Of a DNA stretch of 64,000 nucleotides, positions 13,276-25,688 are shown in pieces. Source of the stretch: Phragmitibacter flavus (GTDB lineage: Bacteria; Verrucomicrobiota; Verrucomicrobiia; Verrucomicrobiales; Verrucomicrobiaceae); the NCBI RefSeq assembly GCF_005780165.1, contig NZ_VAUV01000008.1:124001-188000 (forward strand), in the 5' to 3' direction. A program made the translations under genes and the position numbers. Under the pieces are notes generated by a model. It had not been told where the DNA came from. It ran no database searches and saw nothing but the letters and a program-made list of their open reading frames with translations. Numbering within the stretch: position 1 is the stretch's first letter; each line of letters opens with the position of its first letter.

Positions 13276-16200
13276 ATGCACACTTCAACGTTGACATCAA
13301 ATTCGGGAATCCTCATGATCGGAATTAAACAAAACATGATTCATCGACTGCTGATCTCCCTGTTGACGCTCCACGTCGCTGTGGCGGCGGGCGAGCCGGA
13401 TGAACCGGCGACCCGAGAGAGTCCGCTGACCAGTTTGACGGAGGCGCAGAAATTACCCCGGATGGCCTTCAATGTAAGTCGACCGCTGTTACTTACAGGC
13501 ATCGTCACCCTCGCTGATGCGGAGCGCAACTTGCTGGTGATTCAAGACGCCGCCAGCGCCATCGCGATTCGCCCCGACCCGCCGCAAATGCCCGTGCGAA
13601 CAGGTCAGCGTGTCGAACTCCGGGCCGCCGACTCCGCGCCCTATCTCCCCTACTGTCCGACTTATCCGTTCAGCCCTTCAGGCAGCGACTTGCTGACATC
13701 ATTTGAGCTTTCAAAGGAAACAGGAAACTACAAGCTTAATCGCATGCGCGGCTGGCTGGTGCCGCCCAGAACGGGCTTCTACACTTTTTGGATCGCCAGT
13801 GATGACTCGTCCTCCTTGTGGCTGAGCCCCGGTTTGGATCCCAGCCAGGCCAAGCGCATTGCCCACATCGAAACGGGATCATGGACGACCGCCCGACAAT
13901 GGGACCGGTATGCAAACCAGCGCTCTGAACGTGTGCAATTGCAGGCGGGGAAGGCTTATTACATTGAAGCATTGCAGGAACAGCAAACGGGGGAGAATCA
14001 CCTTGCCGTCGCCTGGTCGGGGCCTGACATGCCGCAGGCAGTCATCAGTGGGCAATATCTCGCGCCATGGAGGGAATCTGACGAGTCAGCGGATGGTGAT
14101 CGAGCGATTGAAATCGGCAAGGGCATTATGAGGGAATACTGGCTGGACTACACTGCAGGCAATCTCGCCCCCGTTCTCTCAGGGGTGACCAACGAAGGCG
14201 GCTTGACGGTGCGAGGCCTGCAAATCAAGGTGCTTGATGACCATGTCTGGCCGGAACCGCATCCCATTCAGATCGGCCAATCGATTGCTGCCAGCAATAT
14301 TTACCGATGGGTGGAAGGTGAAGGCGCTGTCACCTTCCTTTCCACCGACGGCGTTTCCGCCAACCTGGAACTTACTGAAGGCTCCAACCGGCTTCTGCTA
14401 CGGGTTGCCCGTTGGCGGGGCAATCTTCCGCAAAGGCACACGAACCTTAGGGCGCGATTCCGGGGAGTGTGCGAGGGAGGCCACGACTTCGGCGGCCCGC
14501 TGATTGCGAGCATCGTCTGGGCCGCGACCGAGGAAGACGTGTCCTTTTTTGAACAAGCCGGTTCCCAGCCTCTTTCACCACCTACCTATCCATCAGACAC
14601 TGCGGAAGGATCGTTCCCGGGACATTACTTCACTCGCGGGGTCGTGACTTTCAATGACCGCGTGCGCGACAAAGACATTCTGTATGTTCAGGACAAACTG
14701 GCTGGAATCTCTATCTCTCAAGACCATCGCCAACTGGGCTCCAGCCTGCGGGTTGGGCAGCTGGTGGAAATCGGGGGGCCACTGTTGCCTGGAAAACATG
14801 CACCAGCGCTTCAAGCATGGACGGTCAACGTGATGGGCTGGCAAAACATGCCTCTTCCAGCCATTCCTTCATCTCAGCCGGTGGGCGAGGGCGTGCGTGA
14901 AGGTCAATGGACGGAAATGGATGGAGTGGTGCGATCAGTGACGGCCAATGGAACCATGAGTCTCATGGGAAAAAACGGCCCTTTCCAGCTCTGGTTAAGC
15001 GGGGTCGATCCCTCCAAACTTGACCGCTATGTGAACTCGCGGCTTCGTGCACGCGGCGTGGTGTCATTGGAAACATTTCAAGCGCCGGCCTTGCTGGTGC
15101 CTGGACCGACCTTCATTGAGATTGCCCAACCCGCACCTGAAGTCTCCACCGAGCCTACGCCGATCTCCCAACTGACCAATGTTGAGTCCCAAAATGAATG
15201 GAGCCACATGGAGAAGGCAGTGGGCACCGTGACCTTTTGCGGCGAGCATCACTTTTTCATTCAAGACGCGACCGGCGGCATCCGGGTTCATCCCCTCGAT
15301 GGCTCCCTTCCCAAACCTGGCGACAAGGTGCAGGTGATCGGCTTTCCAGGTCGGGCCGATGCCATCGCGCAGTTGACTGAAGTGACATGGAAGAGCGTCG
15401 AGCATGCACCAGCCATTGAAGCGGCAACCCTCGACCCATCGGAAGTGGACGCAAGTCACGCCAACTTGTTGGTCAAGGTGGAAGGCCGATTGGTTGCTCA
15501 AAAAACTCATGGAAGTGGACTCATATTTGAATTGCAATCAGGACGAACCGTTTTCGAAGCGGCGCTCACTGCTGATGCAAAAGAAGTGCCCGCTTTCGAG
15601 GAGGGGAGCATGCTCAGTGTCACTGGGATTTCCGTATTTCATTCATCATCCCAGCGGGCCAACCTTTTGTTGCGCTCACCAGCGGACGTCGTCCTAATCA
15701 AAGGTCCTCCTTGGTGGAATTTGAAACGCTCCGCCACCTTGATCGGGTTGTTGTTGACCGTGCTGGCGGCCACCATGATTCGGGTCCAGTTTCTCAATCG
15801 CCGGTTCGCCCATCAAAAAGCCGCACGGCTCGCCTTCGCACGCAGCATGCTGGAAAACCAGGAGAATGAGCGCCGCCGCATCGCCGCCAGTCTTCATGAC
15901 AGTCTCGGCCAGGATCTGCTGGTGATCCGCAATCAAACTCACCGCGCCCTTCAATCCGCTCTGGATCATCCGGTGTTGCGACAGCGGTTGGAGGATATCT
16001 CAAGCACTACGTTGCAGGCCATCAACGAAGTTAGAGAAATTGCCCATAACCTGCGCCCCTATCAATTGGATCGACTCGGGCTTACCCAGGCGATCCGCGC
16101 CATTGTAAGAAAGGTGTCAGAAACCAGTCCGATCGATCTGGCCTCCCATGTCGACGAGATCGACCACCTCTTCGACAAAGAGTCCGAAATTCACATCTAC

Positions 16201-16479
16201 CGGATCGTCCAGGAGGGAATCAACAACATCATGAAACACTCAGCCGCGACCGAGGCGGCCGTGGTGGTGAGACATCATCCCAGTCGCGTGTCCATTTCCA
16301 TTCGCGACAATGGCAAAGGAATCGATCAGGATGCCCGATCCATCCGCGATGGCGGACTGGGATTAAGCGGAATCGAGGAAAGGGCAAAAATCATGAATGG
16401 CTCCATCACGATTGATTCCGCGCCCGGTCAGGGTGTAAGCTTGCAAATAGAACTTCCAATTCTCACCCTCGCGGAATGA
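13276..16479 (+). CDS. large membrane sensor histidine kinase with PA14 and OB-like modules
   Basis: Up to 1067 residues; ATGs at 13315 and 13336 give shorter forms that start directly at the signal segment MIHRLLISLLTLHVAVAAG, and GGGAA before 13315 favours that one. The outer part holds an OB-like module (GIVTLADAERNLLVIQD, about residue 75), a PA14-like domain (GWLVPPRTGFYTFWIASDDS, about 155-265), a second OB-like module (GVVTFNDRVRDKDILYVQD, about 455) and another near 650 (GTVTFCGEHHFFIQD). A transmembrane helix follows near 820-838. The kinase core has the HisKA_3 box ERRRIAASLHDSLGQDLL with His874, an N box (VQEGINNIMKHS) and a G box (GGLGLSGIEERAKIM). PA14 domains usually bind glycans, so a carbohydrate-like signal is a reasonable guess. 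Stop overlaps the regulator start by ATGA. Confidence 0.9.
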   Translation: MHTSTLTSNSGILMIGIKQNMIHRLLISLLTLHVAVAAGEPDEPATRESPLTSLTEAQKLPRMAFNVSRPLLLTGIVTLADAERNLLVIQDAASAIAIRPDPPQMPVRTGQRVELRAADSAPYLPYCPTYPFSPSGSDLLTSFELSKETGNYKLNRMRGWLVPPRTGFYTFWIASDDSSSLWLSPGLDPSQAKRIAHIETGSWTTARQWDRYANQRSERVQLQAGKAYYIEALQEQQTGENHLAVAWSGPDMPQAVISGQYLAPWRESDESADGDRAIEIGKGIMREYWLDYTAGNLAPVLSGVTNEGGLTVRGLQIKVLDDHVWPEPHPIQIGQSIAASNIYRWVEGEGAVTFLSTDGVSANLELTEGSNRLLLRVARWRGNLPQRHTNLRARFRGVCEGGHDFGGPLIASIVWAATEEDVSFFEQAGSQPLSPPTYPSDTAEGSFPGHYFTRGVVTFNDRVRDKDILYVQDKLAGISISQDHRQLGSSLRVGQLVEIGGPLLPGKHAPALQAWTVNVMGWQNMPLPAIPSSQPVGEGVREGQWTEMDGVVRSVTANGTMSLMGKNGPFQLWLSGVDPSKLDRYVNSRLRARGVVSLETFQAPALLVPGPTFIEIAQPAPEVSTEPTPISQLTNVESQNEWSHMEKAVGTVTFCGEHHFFIQDATGGIRVHPLDGSLPKPGDKVQVIGFPGRADAIAQLTEVTWKSVEHAPAIEAATLDPSEVDASHANLLVKVEGRLVAQKTHGSGLIFELQSGRTVFEAALTADAKEVPAFEEGSMLSVTGISVFHSSSQRANLLLRSPADVVLIKGPPWWNLKRSATLIGLLLTVLAATMIRVQFLNRRFAHQKAARLAFARSMLENQENERRRIAASLHDSLGQDLLVIRNQTHRALQSALDHPVLRQRLEDISSTTLQAINEVREIAHNLRPYQLDRLGLTQAIRAIVRKVSETSPIDLASHVDEIDHLFDKESEIHIYRIVQEGINNIMKHSAATEAAVVVRHHPSRVSISIRDNGKGIDQDARSIRDGGLGLSGIEERAKIMNGSITIDSAPGQGVSLQIELPILTLAE

Positions 16480-17129
16480 GCGAAACCATAAAACTTCTCA
16501 TCGTTGACGATCACCCGGTATTTCGCCGGGGTCTGCGTGAGATCATCGAAGAAAACGAAAGTCTGGAGATTGTTGGAGAAGCGTCCAATGGTGCCGAGGG
16601 TTTGGAACTGGCAGCCAAACTACAACCTGACATTGTCGTGGTCGATGTCGACATGCCCGAATTAAACGGATTGGACATGGCGCGACAGTTGAGAAAGATA
16701 TTGAGCACTTCTCAAGTGGTGTTTCTCACCATGTATAAGGATGAAGACGTCTTCAACGCGGCGATCGACCTTGGTGTGAGAGGTTATGTGCTCAAGGAAA
16801 ATGCCGGTGAGGACATCATCGAAGCGTTGCTGATTGTCGCAGAGGGCGAGACGTTTTTTAGTTCGACCATGGGTGCCATTGGACAGCGCCGGGAGGATCG
16901 CGTTCAGGCCTTGCTGCTGAGCAAGCCAAACCTGGATCAGTTGACTCCATCAGAGAAACGCATCTTAAAGTTGATCGCCGACGATCACACCAGCAAGGAG
17001 ATCGCCTATCTCCTAAAAATCAGCGCGAAGACGGTGGAGAATCACCGGCTTAACATCTGCAACAAGCTCCACATTCACGGGTCCCACGGCTTGCTCAAGT
17101 TCGCGTTTGATCACAAGTCCTGCCTGTGA
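16476..17129 (+). CDS. NarL/FixJ-type response regulator
   Basis: 217 residues, translationally coupled to the kinase gene by a 4-base ATGA overlap. The receiver domain has the acidic pair D11-D12 (VDDHPVF), the probable phosphoacceptor D57 (VVVDVDMPELNG), Thr in FLTMYKD and Lys in YVLKENA. The C-terminal LuxR-type helix-turn-helix (LTPSEKRILKLIADDHTSKEI, then KTVENHRLNICNKL) binds DNA. Partnership with the upstream kinase is strongly implied. Targets are unknown; the convergent vcc cassette is only a neighbour, not a demonstrated target. Confidence 0.94.
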   Translation: MSETIKLLIVDDHPVFRRGLREIIEENESLEIVGEASNGAEGLELAAKLQPDIVVVDVDMPELNGLDMARQLRKILSTSQVVFLTMYKDEDVFNAAIDLGVRGYVLKENAGEDIIEALLIVAEGETFFSSTMGAIGQRREDRVQALLLSKPNLDQLTPSEKRILKLIADDHTSKEIAYLLKISAKTVENHRLNICNKLHIHGSHGLLKFAFDHKSCL

Positions 17130-17213: not shown

Positions 17214-17843
17214 CTAATACATCACCGCCGAGCCGGTGTAGGGATTAATCACGAGCGTCCGGTGGTTGGCTGGCAAGCTATTCGGTGCCTTGTCCACATC
17301 CTCCACCAAGGCCAGCGTCAGCGACCAGATTGAAGCCCCCGCACCTCGAATCAAGGTGGTGCTGCCCTGTGGGGTGAAGGCAAACAATGGTGAAGTGTTG
17401 TCCTCGTCATCATCAACATCCATGGCCAACGGTGGCAGATTCACGAGCGTCGAAAAGGCGTTGTTTTCGATCATCATCACCGAAGCGTCCAGCCAGTTGA
17501 CTTCGCCCAAGGGTTTCCATTCTCCCGTCGTTCGGTCCGGGGCCAGCCACTGCCAGCCCTGCGTAAGAATTGATCCCGCGTCAAGTTCGTCGGCGCGTTG
17601 CACAAACCTCATTCCCACCGGCCGGTTCTCCTTGACGGCCAACTGCGCGGCATAAGCCAGTTCGTTGATCAACCGGGCACCGGACGCCGACAATTTTTGC
17701 GCTTCCAGCGAACGACCAATGGTCGAGGTCGACATGGCAAAAAGCAGCGAAATGATCACGATGACCACCAGCAGCTCAAGCAGGGTGAAGCCGCATTGCC
17801 GCCTGGATGAAGCGGAGTTTGGCAATGTAGAGTTAGTTTTCAA
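17214..17843 (-). CDS. vccD: Verru_Chthon cassette protein D (prepilin-like)
   Basis: 209 residues with a type IV prepilin leader: RRQCGFTLLELLVVIVIISLL, processing expected between G and F with Glu at +5. The remainder (GRSLEAQKLSASGARLINELAYAAQLAVKENRP) resembles GspH-like minor pseudopilins. It is the last gene of a four-gene cassette seen in Verrucomicrobia in which every member has a pilin-like N-terminal helix. Its start lies 11 bases inside the vccC frame, indicating coupled translation. Its role is unknown; a secretion or surface assembly function is guessed from the pseudopilin form. Confidence 0.85.
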   Translation of the reverse strand: MKTNSTLPNSASSRRQCGFTLLELLVVIVIISLLFAMSTSTIGRSLEAQKLSASGARLINELAYAAQLAVKENRPVGMRFVQRADELDAGSILTQGWQWLAPDRTTGEWKPLGEVNWLDASVMMIENNAFSTLVNLPPLAMDVDDDEDNTSPLFAFTPQGSTTLIRGAGASIWSLTLALVEDVDKAPNSLPANHRTLVINPYTGSAVMY

Positions 17844-18933
17844 TGGACGTCATGAGTTTGGCCGCAGGAAGCTGCACGGCGGTGGTGAAAATCCGGTAGC
17901 CGAGCTTCCGTCCGGCCAGTTCCTGCTCCAGTTCGCGGATGTCATCTTCGTAGAGCTCCGCATCGACAAACAAACCGGTATTCATGAAAGCCTGCAATTC
18001 CATCGCTTGCGCCGCAACCTGCGTCGCCTCCATGGCATCCCAATCACGCTCGTCCAAGGCAACCAGCGTGAGCCGAATCATGGGAGGTATCTGGTGGCGT
18101 GAACGGGCGGCCAGTTCCGATGTGTCGGGCCACTGGTGGCGTCGCGAATCGTAGATGTAGTTCGGAGCGACATCGGTATCCTTGTCAGTGGTTCCCTTGG
18201 CGGCCGGCCACAATGGTTGAATGACCAGCGCCAGGATGTTCTCGGCCAATGGTTGTGAGTCTTCTGCCAGCGCGGCGCGAAACCAGTCATACAAACCCAT
18301 TTGCGAAGCCTGGTCTTCGATCCACGGGATCGGCGTTGCGTCGGCATTACCGGGTGTCACCATTCGATAAAGTGACAACTTTTCGGTGGGCTGGCGAAAT
18401 TCCATCAACCGAAACCGTTTGCGCTCAGGGACCGCCGGAGCGGCTAGAAATCCCGGACGACGCGGCAGATCGCTGTCAAAGCAAGCATACCAGCCCCAAC
18501 CATTCATTGTGCCCGAAAGCTCCACTGGCGATAAAGCCGCCGGAGTCGTCCTGCCAGTATCGATGCTTTCCCCAACCGGTGCCTGGAAAAACAACGCATG
18601 CCCAGCCGCAAGCACGCTTTCATTCAAAAGAGTGGTTACCGGACCGGAGACAAAATGAAGCTCCGACTGCCTTTCGTAATGTTCCGGGTTGCCATCATCA
18701 TCGAACTTGTAGCCCCAGTAGGAGTTCAACGTCGCTTGTGACAATCGGGCGGCTATGGCATCGAAGGCGGCCCGGGCTTCGCGAAAGGAATCCGTGCGCT
18801 CCTTGGTGTCGGTCCACGCCACCTGCGTATCGGCAAGAATGCGAGCCAGCGAAATCAGCAACAGTGAGGCCACCGCCATCGAGACCAGCAGCTCGACCAA
18901 CGTAAACGCTGCGATGCTTTTACGGCTCTTCAT
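17833..18933 (-). CDS. vccC: Verru_Chthon cassette protein C (prepilin-like)
   Basis: 366 residues from ATG at 18931-18933, chosen because it overlaps the vccB stop as ATGA and places the pilin helix at the N-terminus; the frame is open to 18996. The leader SRKSIAAFTLVELLVSMAVAS has Ala where prepilin peptidase substrates normally have Gly at -1, although FTLVE is intact. The body resembles GspJ-like minor pseudopilins (EARAAFDAIAARLSQATLNSYW). C-terminal residues include RHQIPPMIRLTLVALDERDW. Third member of the cassette. Function not known. Confidence 0.85.
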   Translation of the reverse strand: MKSRKSIAAFTLVELLVSMAVASLLLISLARILADTQVAWTDTKERTDSFREARAAFDAIAARLSQATLNSYWGYKFDDDGNPEHYERQSELHFVSGPVTTLLNESVLAAGHALFFQAPVGESIDTGRTTPAALSPVELSGTMNGWGWYACFDSDLPRRPGFLAAPAVPERKRFRLMEFRQPTEKLSLYRMVTPGNADATPIPWIEDQASQMGLYDWFRAALAEDSQPLAENILALVIQPLWPAAKGTTDKDTDVAPNYIYDSRRHQWPDTSELAARSRHQIPPMIRLTLVALDERDWDAMEATQVAAQAMELQAFMNTGLFVDAELYEDDIRELEQELAGRKLGYRIFTTAVQLPAAKLMTSIEN

Positions 18934-19460
18934 GGTGTAGGACTGGTTGAGGGCAGCTTGTCTGTTTGGGCGAGCAACACTTGCGTGCTCCGGCACAGCT
19001 CGGGAGTCGCAAAGGCCTGCTCCGCGTTCATTCGATCGGTGACCAAAATCTGCAACGCCTTCAGTTTAGGATTGGAACCCCAATTTTCTGCCCCGGGCAG
19101 GGGTTCTGCATCTGCAACGGCGACGCGCGCGGTGAAGATTCGATCAGCCGCATCATTCTCCAGGCGCATCCCCTGTCCATCGAAGAAAAAATCTTCGCTC
19201 TCACTGGACTGCCGCTGATTCAACACCTCCTGCCAATCGCGCATGCGGTAGTCTGCGGCAACGAACTGTGCGATCCGTGCTTCCGCCGTGCGTGCGCCAG
19301 CTTCCCGAAGGGTGTTGAGGGATACCGGGATGAGTCCCACCAGAGCAGCGACCACCGATGAGGCAAGGCCCACAGAAAGCGCGGTCTCGGCCAGGGTGAA
19401 TCCTTGAGATTTTCTGGTTTTGGTTTTGATTTTGGTTGGATTTAGGGATGCTGGTTTCAC
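18930..19460 (-). CDS. vccB: Verru_Chthon cassette protein B (prepilin-like)
   Basis: 176 residues. The prepilin-like leader KSQGFTLAETALSVGLASS (G before F, Glu at +5) is followed by VVAALVGLIPVSLNTLREAG, the pattern of cassette B proteins. Start and stop both overlap neighbours by ATGA (vccA stop at 19457, vccC start at 18933), so A, B, C and D are probably made from one message. Small soluble tail (about 140 residues) with no recognised domain. Likely membrane-anchored and exposed outside the inner membrane. Confidence 0.85.
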   Translation of the reverse strand: MKPASLNPTKIKTKTRKSQGFTLAETALSVGLASSVVAALVGLIPVSLNTLREAGARTAEARIAQFVAADYRMRDWQEVLNQRQSSESEDFFFDGQGMRLENDAADRIFTARVAVADAEPLPGAENWGSNPKLKALQILVTDRMNAEQAFATPELCRSTQVLLAQTDKLPSTSPTP

Positions 19461-22400
19461 GGTGCGAATGTTTTTTTGTTGATGATTCGGAAGCGGTAAT
19501 GATCGTCGATGGCTTCAGTGGCATTGGTATTTTCAATAAGTGCCGGCAGGGTGGGATCGTTGGGATCCACATATCGCTCGATCAGTGCGGAGCCGCGTTG
19601 TTCGGCGATGAGCGCATCAGCATTCTCATCCCATTCAGCCGCTGCACTGGAGCGTGCTTTTTTTAGTGCCTGCACCCGATAATGGACCTGAAAGGTATTG
19701 GAACGCGTGGTGAGTCGGGGATACAACTGGTTGTATGGTGACTCGCGCACGTTGTCACCGGTAAGTTCCATGCCATCTTTTTGGGTGTTGAGACTGCCAT
19801 TCCACCAAGTGACCACATTCTCAAAGGTGGGATCGGGAGTGTTCATGACCCGCTGCGGATAAGTTCTGCCTTCTATCTTTTTGGGCACCAGGAATATCTC
19901 GCAAATTTCCGAAGCACTGCGGAAAATGTCACCTGCATTGAAGCGTCGATGAAAGCCTCTCATGGTTTCCTCAGCGTTGATCTCAAACATCGTTTCATAC
20001 TTCAGCCAGTTATCCCAGGCCTTGTAACACTCCTGTTTCTGCTCGGCGCCAGCGCCCCATGTGGAGGCGTCGCCCGCCCATGCCACTTCCGTAGGAACGG
20101 CGCTGAGACGCGTTCCACGCAGGGCGGCATGCAGGCCGGTTTCCCGTCGTAGATAAGTGAATGGCATGATTTGTTGGTTCATGTTGATCTTGCCGGATGT
20201 GGAGAGCGGCTCACTGATCGCGTAAGGTTCCACCACCGGCATCCAGAACAGGTCGAGCAGCAGGTGATCACGTGGAGGACGAAAGCCATAATGATCCACC
20301 TGGGTCGGTTCCGCACCCGACGCCGTGCTGCGGGAAGGAGGGTTGGGACTAAACAACAAGGTCTGCCATGGCCCCACCTTGTTGCCGATGCCCGGCACGG
20401 GATGCACGCCACTCGGCAACGAACCGAACGCCACCGCCGAGGCGATTTGACGATTGGGCGCATAGTTACCGGCATCTTCGGTGTCGGTGTAATCGAACAA
20501 GCTGAAGTAACTGGTGCGATCCGTGGTGGTGTTGGTTTTGAATCCGGTGGTATCCGGTTGGTTGATATAGGGTCCATCCTCAACACGGCCAATGCCGCTG
20601 TCCCAATCACCCGGACGGCTGGCGCTGCCGGCTCCGGTATTGTAAGCGCCGTCCAGACGATACGGTGTCGCCGGTTGACAGTCCTGCCAGTAGGCCACCT
20701 CTTTTAACAATCCGTAGGGTTGGATTTGATTCAGATTGGATCCATTCAAGACATAACCTGCCGCCTGCCAGGGATGCAAGCGGCCGCCCTTGGTAGGGTA
20801 AAGCACCGATTGCTGTTCCATTCCCCGTCCATAATGTCCTTGATAACTGTTCGCCGACCTTCGCAACGTTTGCGCCATCCATGTGGTTCCTGGAATGCCC
20901 GCCGGCGCGGTTCCAGGGGTAACGCCCGTAAGATAGTCGGCATGAGGGGCATAATAAGTCGCGGGGATTTCCCGCAGTGCGCAAAGAAGCCGGTAGTCGC
21001 CTTTGTTTGGTCCGCCGGCGTGTGCCGCCACGGAACGCACGACATCACCAGGAACAAAAAGGTTCTCTGCAGGATTGTCATTCACCAAACGGCTTTGAAC
21101 GCTCATTTTATTCTTCGCGTTTTCCCAGGTCCAGTCGACGTCATCCCAGCTTATCTTGGGGCGCTGGCGTGCCCGTGGGGTTGGCCAAGGCGTCGTTGAA
21201 TCGGGAAAGGTTAGGTTGGCCGTTTGGATCAAGGTGGCATCGCTGATGGCTCCCGGATCAGGACTGCCAATGTGGGTTTCGATGGTGATCGGTCCTCCGG
21301 TGAAGGTAAAGGTATCACCTACGGACACGTCGACCTCCACGCTTACAAAAGGAAATTTCTCCACGGGATTGCTGCCCCCATCCACCAGCTTGGCGGTTGC
21401 CCGGGAGCGGAAGAATTGGGCGTGCAACGACGTGTAGGCGCTCGACCTCCCTTCGTCCCAGGTGTCATAGCAGGGCATGCGTGCGTGATTCACGGCATCG
21501 GCGGGAAAGCCGAGCGATGCCCCATTCACCCTCCAGGTTTCGAGACCGCGAATGCGATAATTGACATCCGGCGAATAACCTGGCAGACCCACCACGGGCG
21601 CGAAGGGTTGCAAGATCAAAAAGGCACGCATCTTGTTCGTCTTGTCGGCGATGTTGTCGCCGTCCTCGTCTTTTGGCGTGCCATCGGGCAACAGTTCGAC
21701 ATCGGTCGCGATGAACACCAAGGCCGCTTCAATCACACTGGGAAAGTGGCCGAAAGATTTTAACGTTTCGCCAAACGGTTCCACGCCAGCGCCATTAGTC
21801 ACCACTGGAGCCGCCGAACCTTCGGCGAAAAACTCTGCGCCGTTGGCATCGGTCGACACCCGTGTCGGAGGAAGGAAACGGTATTCTGGATCGGTGTGGC
21901 GGCTCGCTGGATTCACCCCCCAGCGCACCATGTCGAACATGTTTAACAAGATCTGATTTTGGTTCCTCTCGCCATACTTGTTTCTGAAAGTTTGCGCACC
22001 GAACCCAGGCACGGGCTGTTGGGTGAGCCGTTGCAAATAGCTAAATACCTTTTGATTGCCTGCCAGTTCAAAGTCTGCCACAGGACTCTGTGAGGAGCCG
22101 CGGTTGTTTAAACTTTTCCAGGTTTCTGCGCGTTGGAAGTAACCTTGTTCTCCGGCAACATTGGCGCAGAATTCCAAAAGCTTGTCCTTCGAGTTGCGAG
22201 CCTCCGTTTCGGCCTGGATGGGCCACAGGGAAATACGCGGACGATTAAACCCGTTGGTTTCCGGCGCACGACTATGGGCGGTGAGAAAGAACCGGCCAGT
22301 CTCCAGATCCCGGGCATCAACCGATCCAGCGGATAGGTTGGGCTGCCGTTGTCCGCTGACCGGATCATATTCCGTGCCGAAGAAAAATTCATCCGTCGTG

Positions 22401-23557
22401 GCAAACAAACGTTCGCGTTTGAATGGCAGGCCGTTGGGGGAAGATACCAATTCGCTGCCGCCGCGTGATCCCTGACCAGATTCACCGAGGTGAATACGTG
22501 GCAATAAGTTGTAGACTCCACCAAGCCACGTCTGATACTCCGGCTTGTTGCTCACGGTGCCATCATTGATGATGTTCGGATAACGCCACCGGTAACGCGG
22601 GTCAAACCCTTGCAGAACCACACTTAGCGAAGTCATTCCCGGATGCCCAGGATACCGCTGAAACTCATTCTGTGCGGGAGGGAAATAGGCGTAGTTGCGA
22701 TCCGTCCAACTGGTGGTGCGGGGCACGTCCCAAGGAGTGCCTTCGCCTGCCGTGTTGATGTTGACCTTGCAGCTTTCGTCATCCGTCCAGAAGGCGATGC
22801 GTCCAACGATCGGGTTGTTTTGCGTGACCGCATCAGGATCAAAGGTCACCTTCTCCGCAGTTCCACCCGTCGGTGCGACGAGTTTGCCATCTTGCAACAC
22901 ATACAACCAGCGCGTGGGCATTGGAAGTGGTTGCTGATCGGTGCCTCCAGGCACCGCCTGGGTGGTGGAGATCCCGAATCCACCCACGCCCGTATTGCCT
23001 GTTCCCGGCAACGCGGTGGGACTGAGGATGGGGTAGATTCGATCAATGGTTCCGTTGGCATTCAATCGGGCAACCGGTTCATTCAAGTCGGTGAAACGTG
23101 CCGGAGCAGTGTCCCATCCGCCCAAACTGGCCGCTTCGTCGGCCGCAACAAAGTCCGCGCCAGACTCCACCATCTTGTCGGAGCTGTATAACTTCCACAC
23201 GGACTCCGTTGCAGAACGTAACTGTGCCGTCGATCCTCCACCAGGATGGGGACTGGTGCCGAACACGCGAATCATGCCCGGTTGGGAAGCCCAGGTTCTG
23301 GCCATACCCAAATCCGCCGTTGCCTGCTGAATCTGACCCATCACGATGGATGCCGGCATGTCCGACAAGGTGCGCGCCTCGGCCGTTTCACTGAAGGCCG
23401 CTGAAGACTTGGTTTCCACCGTGCCCAGAGAGAACATGGCCAGGACCAGGACCATCAGGATGGACATGATCACCAATACCAGAACCAGCACCATGCCGGA
23501 TTGTGAACGGGAACGGTTTGCCGCCACCCCTTGGCGGTTAAGTCCGTAAGGTTTCAT
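19457..23557 (-). CDS. vccA: cassette protein A from the internal start (alternative product)
   Basis: Alternative reading of the same frame. ATG at 23555-23557 is preceded by GGGAGGGG and followed by the pilin-like helix that opens VccA proteins, giving 1366 residues. The four bases ATGA at this start also spell a TGA in the next frame, exactly the overlap used between vccA/B and B/C. This suggests the upstream PEP-CTERM gene originally ended here. The large soluble part has blocks such as FWTDDESCKVNINTAGEGTPW and HYGFRPPRDHLLLDLFWMP. Function unknown. List as one of two possible products, not a separate locus. Confidence 0.6.
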   Translation of the reverse strand: MKPYGLNRQGVAANRSRSQSGMVLVLVLVIMSILMVLVLAMFSLGTVETKSSAAFSETAEARTLSDMPASIVMGQIQQATADLGMARTWASQPGMIRVFGTSPHPGGGSTAQLRSATESVWKLYSSDKMVESGADFVAADEAASLGGWDTAPARFTDLNEPVARLNANGTIDRIYPILSPTALPGTGNTGVGGFGISTTQAVPGGTDQQPLPMPTRWLYVLQDGKLVAPTGGTAEKVTFDPDAVTQNNPIVGRIAFWTDDESCKVNINTAGEGTPWDVPRTTSWTDRNYAYFPPAQNEFQRYPGHPGMTSLSVVLQGFDPRYRWRYPNIINDGTVSNKPEYQTWLGGVYNLLPRIHLGESGQGSRGGSELVSSPNGLPFKRERLFATTDEFFFGTEYDPVSGQRQPNLSAGSVDARDLETGRFFLTAHSRAPETNGFNRPRISLWPIQAETEARNSKDKLLEFCANVAGEQGYFQRAETWKSLNNRGSSQSPVADFELAGNQKVFSYLQRLTQQPVPGFGAQTFRNKYGERNQNQILLNMFDMVRWGVNPASRHTDPEYRFLPPTRVSTDANGAEFFAEGSAAPVVTNGAGVEPFGETLKSFGHFPSVIEAALVFIATDVELLPDGTPKDEDGDNIADKTNKMRAFLILQPFAPVVGLPGYSPDVNYRIRGLETWRVNGASLGFPADAVNHARMPCYDTWDEGRSSAYTSLHAQFFRSRATAKLVDGGSNPVEKFPFVSVEVDVSVGDTFTFTGGPITIETHIGSPDPGAISDATLIQTANLTFPDSTTPWPTPRARQRPKISWDDVDWTWENAKNKMSVQSRLVNDNPAENLFVPGDVVRSVAAHAGGPNKGDYRLLCALREIPATYYAPHADYLTGVTPGTAPAGIPGTTWMAQTLRRSANSYQGHYGRGMEQQSVLYPTKGGRLHPWQAAGYVLNGSNLNQIQPYGLLKEVAYWQDCQPATPYRLDGAYNTGAGSASRPGDWDSGIGRVEDGPYINQPDTTGFKTNTTTDRTSYFSLFDYTDTEDAGNYAPNRQIASAVAFGSLPSGVHPVPGIGNKVGPWQTLLFSPNPPSRSTASGAEPTQVDHYGFRPPRDHLLLDLFWMPVVEPYAISEPLSTSGKINMNQQIMPFTYLRRETGLHAALRGTRLSAVPTEVAWAGDASTWGAGAEQKQECYKAWDNWLKYETMFEINAEETMRGFHRRFNAGDIFRSASEICEIFLVPKKIEGRTYPQRVMNTPDPTFENVVTWWNGSLNTQKDGMELTGDNVRESPYNQLYPRLTTRSNTFQVHYRVQALKKARSSAAAEWDENADALIAEQRGSALIERYVDPNDPTLPALIENTNATEAIDDHYRFRIINKKTFAP

Positions 23558-25633
23558 CCCCTCCCGGCAGGAAGTTGGTGGAACGGAACGGCGTCGGCGC
23601 AACACCAGGCACAAACCACCCGTCAATAAAAGCAATACCCGCCCAGGTTCAGGAACCACCGCCACTCGAACATGGTAACCGTGCTCATTGAGCAGGCTCT
23701 CCCATTTCAAACCCTCGGCCAGTTCAGGCATATCGTCAAACACCAGGTCCCCACTGTAAACGGTTGCCGCCGTTACCCCTGACCAATCAATCAAACGCCA
23801 GGTATCTCCCAGAGCCCAACCGATGAAGTCATCATTGGACAGTCCCGTGGTGTCAGTCAGACTCAGGCTCCCACTTAGTTGAACCGTCGAGTCGCTGGCG
23901 ATCACCAATAAATCGTTGTTATCCAGAGGATTTAGAAGATTGTCTTCCGCGCCAACATTGTTCCAGATGTTCAACTCCAGCGTGCCGCCCAGGCTGGTAA
24001 CACCGGTGCCAGAGTTAACCAGACGCAATGACTGACCTCCGAGACCGCTCGACGTCCCAACGGAAAGAAAGGAGCCGTTTCCAAGCGTGATGTTCTGCTG
24101 GCTGGAACTTAGTCCCACCTGACCGCTCCCGGCGAGCCGTCCACCGCTTTGGACCAGCACATGGCCAGCGCCGGTGGCGGAGGTTCCCAGCGCGTTGTTG
24201 GCGAGAAGCACGCCTTGTTCAATGGTCGTCGTTCCCGTGTAAGTGTTGGCAGCCGTTAGCGTAAGGATACCGAGTCCCCGCTTAGTCAAACCGCCGTCCA
24301 CCACATCATCGCCATCAAGATTACTATGCTCAAGGACCTGGTTGACGGTGATATTAAATCCATTGGTGTCAAAGACGGCACCGTCATCGCGAACATTGAC
24401 CCGGGTAAGCCCCTGAAGGTAAGATCCAGTGCTCTGGCTGGCCTGGAGAGTGCCTCCGTTAAAGTTAAGGATGCCGGAAGATCCGCCGCCTTTTGCAACC
24501 CCACCGGTAGTCAAAGTGCCGCCATCGAGATTGACCTCCCCGACACCACCACCTTGGGCAATTCTGGTGTAGCCTGTCACCCCGGTGGTAACCACGCCCT
24601 CGGCGGATAGAGTCAACGTGCCGTCGCCTCCCTCCCCGACCCATAGCTCGTTGGTGGCGTTGAAGGTTCCGCCGCTGACATTCAGTGTGGAGGTGCCTCC
24701 TGCAAATGAACTTAACACCGTCTGGCCGCCAGTGGTGGCCGCATTGACGGTGCCCCCGGTGAGGTTGTAAGTCCCGTTTCCTCCATTGTCCCGCCCGATG
24801 ACAAACCAGTTATTCGAGGAAACCGTTCCGGACGATTGGTTAAAGACCCCAGTTCCATTTTGACCAACCCATAACTCGCCGGATGCGTTCAACGTTCCTC
24901 CCGTCATGTGGTAAGTTCCATTGGCACCGGTGGCATTGCCTACGATGAAAAGGTCCGCACTGAGGCTGCCGCCCGATTGATTCATCACACCAATGGCGGT
25001 GGCGTTTTCAGAGGAATACGGGCTCTGCCCCACGCTGAAGGTTCCTCCTGAAATGATGGCCCCGCCATTCAGGTTGAGTGTGCCAGTCCCCCCCGAGCCC
25101 CCGATCGCGAATCCGAAATTGGAATTCACTGTTCCTGCGTCGACCGTCAACACGCCGGTTGGATAGTCGGCATTTCCCCACGAACTATGGCCAACGTTGA
25201 CATAATTGAAAGAGGCGCTGCCCGTCGTATTGATGTTCATCGTGCCATTGCCTGAACCATGTCCTATGGAGGCGTCGCCGGTTGCGCTGATGCTGCCAGA
25301 ACCAGTCAGGTTGTAGGTGCCTGTGCCATACAAACCGACGTTGAACCACCCGGTGGTTAAGGTGCCTGCGGAATGGGCAACGGTCGCACTCCCAAACCAT
25401 CGACCCGCTTCAAACCCCGCCACGGTCTCATCGCTGCTGATGGTGACTGTGCCGTTGATTAATGCGTTGTCAGCGGAAGTCGGCTTCGCATCGCCCTCCC
25501 AATTTGCAGCGGTGCTGAAATTGGTGTCCTCCCCACCTCCAGAGTCCCAGACAAAGTCGGCTGCCTCCAACATCTGAAAACAGAAGATGGAGCAAACCGT
25601 CAAAAGGCTGGAAGCGCGCAATGGATTTTTCAT
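19457..25633 (-). CDS. vccA: PEP-CTERM autotransporter-repeat protein fused to Verru_Chthon cassette protein A
   Basis: 2058 residues from ATG at 25631-25633; AAGGGAAG directly before it is a good ribosome site. First part (about 1-690): signal peptide (SSLLTVCSIFCFQMLEA), then Gly/Asn/Thr-rich autotransporter-associated beta-strand repeats (GTYNLTGG, GTLNLNGG, GVFNQSSG). This part ends in a complete PEP-CTERM signal: VPEPG, hydrophobic RVLLLLTGGLCLVL, then RRRR. Such proteins normally stop there. Here the frame runs on without a stop into MKPYGLNRQG and a PilX-like helix (SGMVLVLVLVIMSILMVLVLA) that begins a typical cassette protein A of about 1366 residues. A strong internal start at 23557 argues that VccA can also be made alone. 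Either a true fusion or a frame change that removed the stop. Confidence 0.82.
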   Translation of the reverse strand: MKNPLRASSLLTVCSIFCFQMLEAADFVWDSGGGEDTNFSTAANWEGDAKPTSADNALINGTVTISSDETVAGFEAGRWFGSATVAHSAGTLTTGWFNVGLYGTGTYNLTGSGSISATGDASIGHGSGNGTMNINTTGSASFNYVNVGHSSWGNADYPTGVLTVDAGTVNSNFGFAIGGSGGTGTLNLNGGAIISGGTFSVGQSPYSSENATAIGVMNQSGGSLSADLFIVGNATGANGTYHMTGGTLNASGELWVGQNGTGVFNQSSGTVSSNNWFVIGRDNGGNGTYNLTGGTVNAATTGGQTVLSSFAGGTSTLNVSGGTFNATNELWVGEGGDGTLTLSAEGVVTTGVTGYTRIAQGGGVGEVNLDGGTLTTGGVAKGGGSSGILNFNGGTLQASQSTGSYLQGLTRVNVRDDGAVFDTNGFNITVNQVLEHSNLDGDDVVDGGLTKRGLGILTLTAANTYTGTTTIEQGVLLANNALGTSATGAGHVLVQSGGRLAGSGQVGLSSSQQNITLGNGSFLSVGTSSGLGGQSLRLVNSGTGVTSLGGTLELNIWNNVGAEDNLLNPLDNNDLLVIASDSTVQLSGSLSLTDTTGLSNDDFIGWALGDTWRLIDWSGVTAATVYSGDLVFDDMPELAEGLKWESLLNEHGYHVRVAVVPEPGRVLLLLTGGLCLVLRRRRSVPPTSCREGMKPYGLNRQGVAANRSRSQSGMVLVLVLVIMSILMVLVLAMFSLGTVETKSSAAFSETAEARTLSDMPASIVMGQIQQATADLGMARTWASQPGMIRVFGTSPHPGGGSTAQLRSATESVWKLYSSDKMVESGADFVAADEAASLGGWDTAPARFTDLNEPVARLNANGTIDRIYPILSPTALPGTGNTGVGGFGISTTQAVPGGTDQQPLPMPTRWLYVLQDGKLVAPTGGTAEKVTFDPDAVTQNNPIVGRIAFWTDDESCKVNINTAGEGTPWDVPRTTSWTDRNYAYFPPAQNEFQRYPGHPGMTSLSVVLQGFDPRYRWRYPNIINDGTVSNKPEYQTWLGGVYNLLPRIHLGESGQGSRGGSELVSSPNGLPFKRERLFATTDEFFFGTEYDPVSGQRQPNLSAGSVDARDLETGRFFLTAHSRAPETNGFNRPRISLWPIQAETEARNSKDKLLEFCANVAGEQGYFQRAETWKSLNNRGSSQSPVADFELAGNQKVFSYLQRLTQQPVPGFGAQTFRNKYGERNQNQILLNMFDMVRWGVNPASRHTDPEYRFLPPTRVSTDANGAEFFAEGSAAPVVTNGAGVEPFGETLKSFGHFPSVIEAALVFIATDVELLPDGTPKDEDGDNIADKTNKMRAFLILQPFAPVVGLPGYSPDVNYRIRGLETWRVNGASLGFPADAVNHARMPCYDTWDEGRSSAYTSLHAQFFRSRATAKLVDGGSNPVEKFPFVSVEVDVSVGDTFTFTGGPITIETHIGSPDPGAISDATLIQTANLTFPDSTTPWPTPRARQRPKISWDDVDWTWENAKNKMSVQSRLVNDNPAENLFVPGDVVRSVAAHAGGPNKGDYRLLCALREIPATYYAPHADYLTGVTPGTAPAGIPGTTWMAQTLRRSANSYQGHYGRGMEQQSVLYPTKGGRLHPWQAAGYVLNGSNLNQIQPYGLLKEVAYWQDCQPATPYRLDGAYNTGAGSASRPGDWDSGIGRVEDGPYINQPDTTGFKTNTTTDRTSYFSLFDYTDTEDAGNYAPNRQIASAVAFGSLPSGVHPVPGIGNKVGPWQTLLFSPNPPSRSTASGAEPTQVDHYGFRPPRDHLLLDLFWMPVVEPYAISEPLSTSGKINMNQQIMPFTYLRRETGLHAALRGTRLSAVPTEVAWAGDASTWGAGAEQKQECYKAWDNWLKYETMFEINAEETMRGFHRRFNAGDIFRSASEICEIFLVPKKIEGRTYPQRVMNTPDPTFENVVTWWNGSLNTQKDGMELTGDNVRESPYNQLYPRLTTRSNTFQVHYRVQALKKARSSAAAEWDENADALIAEQRGSALIERYVDPNDPTLPALIENTNATEAIDDHYRFRIINKKTFAP
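23558..23565 (-). promoter_or_regulatory. purine-rich ribosome site before internal vccA start
   Basis: Read on the minus strand, GGGAGGGG directly abuts ATG at 23557. The spacing is short, but the match to the anti-Shine-Dalgarno sequence is strong and would be an odd coincidence inside a coding region. Confidence 0.55.
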
Positions 25634-25672: not shown

Positions 25673-25688
25673 TAGGTGCAAACACCTA
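25673..25688. repeat. 16-bp inverted repeat upstream of the PEP-CTERM/vcc operon
   Basis: TAGGTG CAAA CACCTA, a perfect 6-bp inverted repeat with a 4-base centre, 40 bases before the start at 25633 in the gap between divergent genes. It could be an operator or a small hairpin; no factor is known. Confidence 0.4.

Follow-up and report, generated by a model that had tools for sequence, protein, structure and literature searches.

In-frame fusion of a PEP-CTERM repeat protein to VccA of a Verru_Chthon cassette in Phragmitibacter flavus

A single open frame spans two genes

The window analyzed here, a stretch of 64,000 nucleotides of the P. flavus genome, carries a single minus-strand open frame (25633-19457, 2058 aa) in which a complete PEP-CTERM repeat protein is joined to a complete VccA. 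The frame starts at ATG 25633, preceded by AAGGGAAGT, and would encode 2074 aa if the alternative TTG at 25681 were used. No stop codon interrupts it between the RRRR basic cluster (23588-23599, minus strand), after which the corresponding proteins of relatives usually stop, and the VccA methionine at 23557. The intervening 30 nt (23558-23587, minus strand) encode a linker, SVPPTSCREG, that occupies the site of the relatives' intergenic spacer. The in-frame fusion claimed in an earlier note on this DNA is therefore confirmed for the sequence as assembled, based on the open frame and on profile matches to both complete domains. The ATGA at the VccA start (23557) and the site upstream of it, GGGAGGGG (23558-23565), are likewise present as that note described. 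The GGAGG core of this site is only 2 nt from the VccA ATG, a tight spacing for a ribosome-binding site, and no homopolymer at the junction is longer than 4 nt.

The PEP-CTERM repeat half (~690 aa; 23558-25633, minus strand) was recognized by matches to TIGR02601, TIGR02595 and PATR and by blastp. Its N-terminus, MKNPLRASSLLTVCSIFCFQMLEA, resembles a signal peptide by eye and was not flagged at the hydropathy cut-off used. The half contains an autotransporter-associated beta-strand repeat (24197-24292, minus strand; TIGR02601/PATR) of the kind associated with type V autotransporter passengers, and a Pfam scan of the fused protein found no C-terminal beta-barrel translocator domain of those autotransporters. 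Over its last 240 aa the half shares 40-52% identity with the C-termini of separate proteins of ~2450 aa in relatives (blastp), and its length is about one third of theirs.

The sorting motif, VPEPGRVLLLLTGGLCLVLRRRRS (23585-23656, minus strand; residues 676-699), has the Pro-Glu-Pro, the hydrophobic helix and the basic cluster, and the fused protein matches TIGR02595 at 22.4 bits (cut-off 16). In a search of the whole genome the motif scored 30.2 bits and ranked fifth among 121 PEP-CTERM matches, which places it beyond chance and upholds the claim of a complete internal signal; the motif is not degenerate. About 1375 residues follow the motif, which thus lies far from the C-terminal position that characterizes PEP-CTERM proteins.

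VccA and the downstream cassette

The VccA half (19457-23557, minus strand; 1366 aa when counted from its internal Met) matches TIGR02600 over its full length (residues 729-2074, positions 1-1296) at 1368 bits vs. a cut-off of 332, and is 57-61% identical to unfused orthologs. It has its own N-terminal hydrophobic helix (23414-23506, minus strand; called by hydropathy), so that the full VccA with its own helix reported in the earlier note is present. The N-terminus reads SQSG|MVLVLVLV, with a putative prepilin-type cleavage point between Gly and Met (23495/23494). A cut by a prepilin peptidase after this glycine is likely at the predicted site because the GspK model matches the N-terminus in 28 of the 34 VccA proteins (best 7.9e-8). 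Like GspK, a minor pseudopilin of type II secretion, VccA thus has a Gly-hydrophobic helix and an N-terminal model match; however, it is about four times longer and its score against NF037980 (17.5 bits) is far below the curated cut-off of 130, by which VccA is not a GspK. No structural match was found either: a PDB search with the VccA profile returned none, and the fold matches of a predicted model (mean pLDDT 70; Foldseek, VIA-align) included no pseudopilin and none that was meaningful.

Directly downstream of the fused gene on the minus strand are vccB (18930-19460, TIGR02598), vccC (17833-18933, start ATG 18933, TIGR02599) and vccD (17214-17843, TIGR02596), the last encoding a GspH-like pseudopilin. 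The order A-B-C-D is complete and, as in relatives, a PEP-CTERM gene lies upstream; this cassette differs from other Verru_Chthon cassettes in that A is fused to that gene. The same 4-nt ATGA overlap had been claimed for both of the next two junctions, which holds for vccB/vccC, whereas the overlap at vccA/vccB is GTGA. An acceleration of VccA was considered and rejected, since VccA is conserved as much as B-D. No published function of the cassette was found in the searchable literature, in which the term "Verru_Chthon" gave nothing. Directly past vccD and convergent to the vcc operon are genes for a NarL-type response regulator and a PA14-domain histidine kinase (13276-17129), a possible regulator pair.

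The two genes are separate in relatives

The seven closest orthologous loci (L068-L073 and L089), which belong to Verrucomicrobium-like strains, another genus of the family and a Prosthecobacter MAG, all have the order PEP-A-B-C-D, and in all seven the PEP-CTERM gene and vccA are two separate genes. This argues that separation is the ancestral state and that, in agreement with the earlier suggestion of a fusion between two normally separate genes, the fusion is derived in the lineage of the window; a fusion common to all relatives was looked for and is absent. The PEP gene stops 0-5 residues past the basic cluster in the closest seven loci, with 21 in L089, and the distances from its stop to the vccA ATG are 28, 28, 25, 43, 30, 32, and 40 nt (L068-L073 and L089, respectively). 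No relative has a PEP/vccA overlap (gaps of 19-186 nt). The closest relatives do retain the ATGA overlap of vccA with vccB, and none of them has a clear Shine-Dalgarno sequence at vccA.

The frames of the two genes coincide in some relatives. In Verrucomicrobium sp. BvORR034 (G001, locus L072) both genes are in one frame and are separated by a single TGA, the junction reading LRRRRRL*SFCLRPIIDPMNNRIF, and the frame is again shared across a single TGA in L098 (RRRRGGR*MTSDSS). The stop after RRRR drifts, as can be seen by comparison of L071 with L073 (ccgTGA against cctATGAgtactatgTAA) and also in L089. In this last locus, from the Prosthecobacter MAG (L089:9780-9985), the PEP-CTERM protein continues for 21 residues beyond RRRR (SLAAGFGQSRATMATKHSGEC*) to a drifted stop next to vccA, and its motif has PES in place of PEP. 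The VccA tree gives the window no firm place, and for this reason the RRRR-Ser common to L089 and the window is not taken as inherited.

Rarity of the fusion

Among the 106 full-length vccA frames sampled from the order, only that of the window is fused. Upstream of VccA it extends in frame for 783 aa, vs. 218 aa in the next-longest case and a median of 36. Similarly, of 70 PEP-CTERM genes sampled from the P. flavus genome, 69 stop no more than 13 residues past the motif (median 2), the fused gene being the sole exception. Among ~110 other vccA loci read with their flanks, a few of which were counted twice because they came from two overlapping collections, about 15 have a PEP-CTERM gene directly upstream, unfused, and there was no second fusion to an upstream PEP-CTERM protein. 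Judging from the loci compared, the fusion is probably a one-off event. The pairing of the genes is probably meaningful in itself, since a PEP-CTERM gene lies directly upstream of vccA in three of the 13 loci of this genome (the window, L023 and L029) vs. a chance expectation of 0.3 (P ~0.003, a rough estimate that takes ~121 PEP-CTERM genes in roughly 5,300, the gene count being assumed from genome size).

Proposed origin and processing

From these comparisons we infer a mutational path in which a lineage-specific loss of a stop codon would have joined two neighbors in an operon, namely a gene for a secreted PEP-CTERM beta-strand-repeat protein and vccA, whose product is a cassette protein of GspK-like pseudopilin type, with the former 30-nt spacer becoming the linker SVPPTSCREG. 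A stop placed right after RRRR would give a gap of 27 nt in the window, within the 25-43 nt of relatives. Simple stop loss can explain the fusion because the BvORR034 genes are already in the same frame and split by one TGA, so that one point mutation in that strain would yield the same fusion. That such a loss fused operon neighbors, and that the product is a membrane hairpin whose parts both proteases can restore, is the explanation we favor and consider reasonably probable.

The topology, processing and function of the fused protein are likewise inferred. The chain would form a hairpin consisting of the periplasmic repeat domain, the PEP-CTERM helix running from out to in, a 35-residue cytoplasmic loop, the VccA helix running from in to out and the periplasmic VccA domain. 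The loop is placed in the cytoplasm by the positive-inside rule, as it has nine Arg/Lys and one acidic residue, and the predicted orientations of the helices match those in each separate protein. An exosortase acting on the outer side would cut at PEP, leaving the repeat protein released or anchored, and prepilin peptidase acting on the cytoplasmic side would cut at the putative GspK-like Gly|Met site and free VccA. Release of the repeat protein by exosortase is a reasonable expectation, and double processing could yield both proteins in their normal form; within the proposed explanation, the fusion would be tolerated because processing restores both parts. The genome encodes three exosortases (PF09721 matches above cut-off), one prepilin peptidase, located 3.6 kb beyond the window, and six secretins.

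There is precedent for internal CTERM tags ascribed to gene fusion. MXAN_5598 of Myxococcus xanthus has an internal MYXO-CTERM, for which an origin by gene fusion has been proposed (PMC11980579), and resembles the window protein in that a surface-protein half carries its tripartite tag inside a longer apparent fusion of two genes. It differs in that its tag belongs to myxosortase and its second half is an outer membrane beta-barrel/OmpA rather than a pseudopilin. The authors propose that its tag is still processed; they state that C-terminal sorting tags are functional in the middle of a protein, and that type II secretion carries MYXO-CTERM and GlyGly-CTERM clients across the outer membrane (PMC11980579). 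Compared with the PEP-CTERM/exosortase system (TIGR02595; PMC1569441), the window has the same motif, helix and basic cluster, but ~1375 residues separate its motif from the C-terminus where normal tails are a few residues; Haft et al. (2006) found fewer than 10 residues after the motif in 87% of cases (PMC1569441). The same authors suspect that long-tailed motifs are non-functional; such motifs tend to be degenerate, whereas the long-tailed motif of the window is non-degenerate. Its intact state could also reflect a very recent fusion or a sequencing error.

Alternative explanations

Two other accounts concern the junction itself. An error of sequencing or assembly, in which one wrong or extra base hides a real stop between the genes, would fit with a fusion that is unique in our samples and a sorting motif that is uneroded, and with one G less in the GGGG run at 23558-23561 the PEP frame would end at the TGA of ATGA. 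The assembly, however, is of good quality (99.89% complete in 44 contigs), no frame is broken in the other full-length vccA copies or in any of the 69 other PEP-CTERM genes sampled, and the junction has no homopolymer run beyond 4 nt; we consider an error quite unlikely. The earlier note had instead proposed an ancestral PEP-CTERM gene whose end overlapped vccA by ATGA, followed by a small frame change. The ATGA is correctly placed and is reached by the +1 frame without a stop, vccA/vccB and vccB/vccC do have 4-nt overlaps, and the implied tail of 10 residues fits the range of 0-13 in this genome. But ATGA follows automatically from any Met-Lys, Met-Asn or Met-Thr start, and VccA of the window begins with Met-Lys; the closest relatives keep the ATGA at vccA/vccB, yet no relative overlaps at PEP/vccA, and in all seven closest loci the PEP gene ends 25-43 nt before the vccA ATG, which speaks against the proposed ancestor. 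The frame change is needless as well, as the BvORR034 genes already share a frame. Since no relative overlaps there and same-frame relatives need only one mutation, we prefer stop loss over a frame change, which on this comparison seems improbable.

The remaining alternatives accept the junction and differ on what it produces. The products might be mostly separate, with translation of VccA still starting internally at 23557 and the fused chain as a by-product. The ATG is kept with GGGAGGGG upstream of it, but the GGAGG core is just 2 nt from the ATG, ribosomes would now elongate across the site and meet no stop from which to re-initiate, and the closest relatives have no clear Shine-Dalgarno sequence at vccA, so this appears unlikely. 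A degenerating locus, in which the fusion abolishes PEP-CTERM protein sorting and is heading for decay, is suggested by the repeat half being about one third of the relatives' length and by the remarks of Haft et al. (2006) on atypical motif locations (PMC1569441); against it, the motif, VccA and B-D are all intact and VccA is conserved like B-D, and we give this account very little credence. Finally, there is a slim chance that the gene encodes a natural membrane polyprotein, made up of a secreted substrate covalently joined to the tip pseudopilin of its own secretion machine, that requires cuts by exosortase outside and prepilin peptidase inside.

Were that polyprotein reading true, Verru_Chthon cassettes would be dedicated secretion tips for the neighboring PEP-CTERM protein. 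If the fusion reflects mere loss of a stop, it shows how near to fusing such gene pairs are, with one point mutation being enough in BvORR034. Taken together, the fusion and the conservation of the PEP-CTERM neighbor among relatives suggest a single pathway shared by the cassette and the repeat protein, and the fused gene lends itself as a natural test for the acceptance of internal signals by exosortase and by prepilin peptidase.

Other vccA loci

Several candidates for further fusions were rejected. A tandem vccA (G113:C298, locus L271) looked fused in the open-frame column, and the genome search gave one 2964-aa frame; the locus consists of two same-frame vccA open frames with a short stretch containing stops between them. 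In-frame extensions of 213-218 aa in G010 have neither a PEP-CTERM motif nor a repeat and look like non-coding open frame, and two matches to a "PEP in frame" regex (L025 and L156) were taken as false positives, their extensions of 107 and 48 aa being too short for a repeat protein. In five loci of this genome (L025, L026, L032, L033, and L034) vccA comes last, in the order B-C-D-A or D-B-C-A, and no PEP-CTERM gene lies directly before it. A vccA cassette was also found on a contig labeled Betaproteobacteria (L166, CAJCIA010000108.1), which is either mis-binned or transferred.
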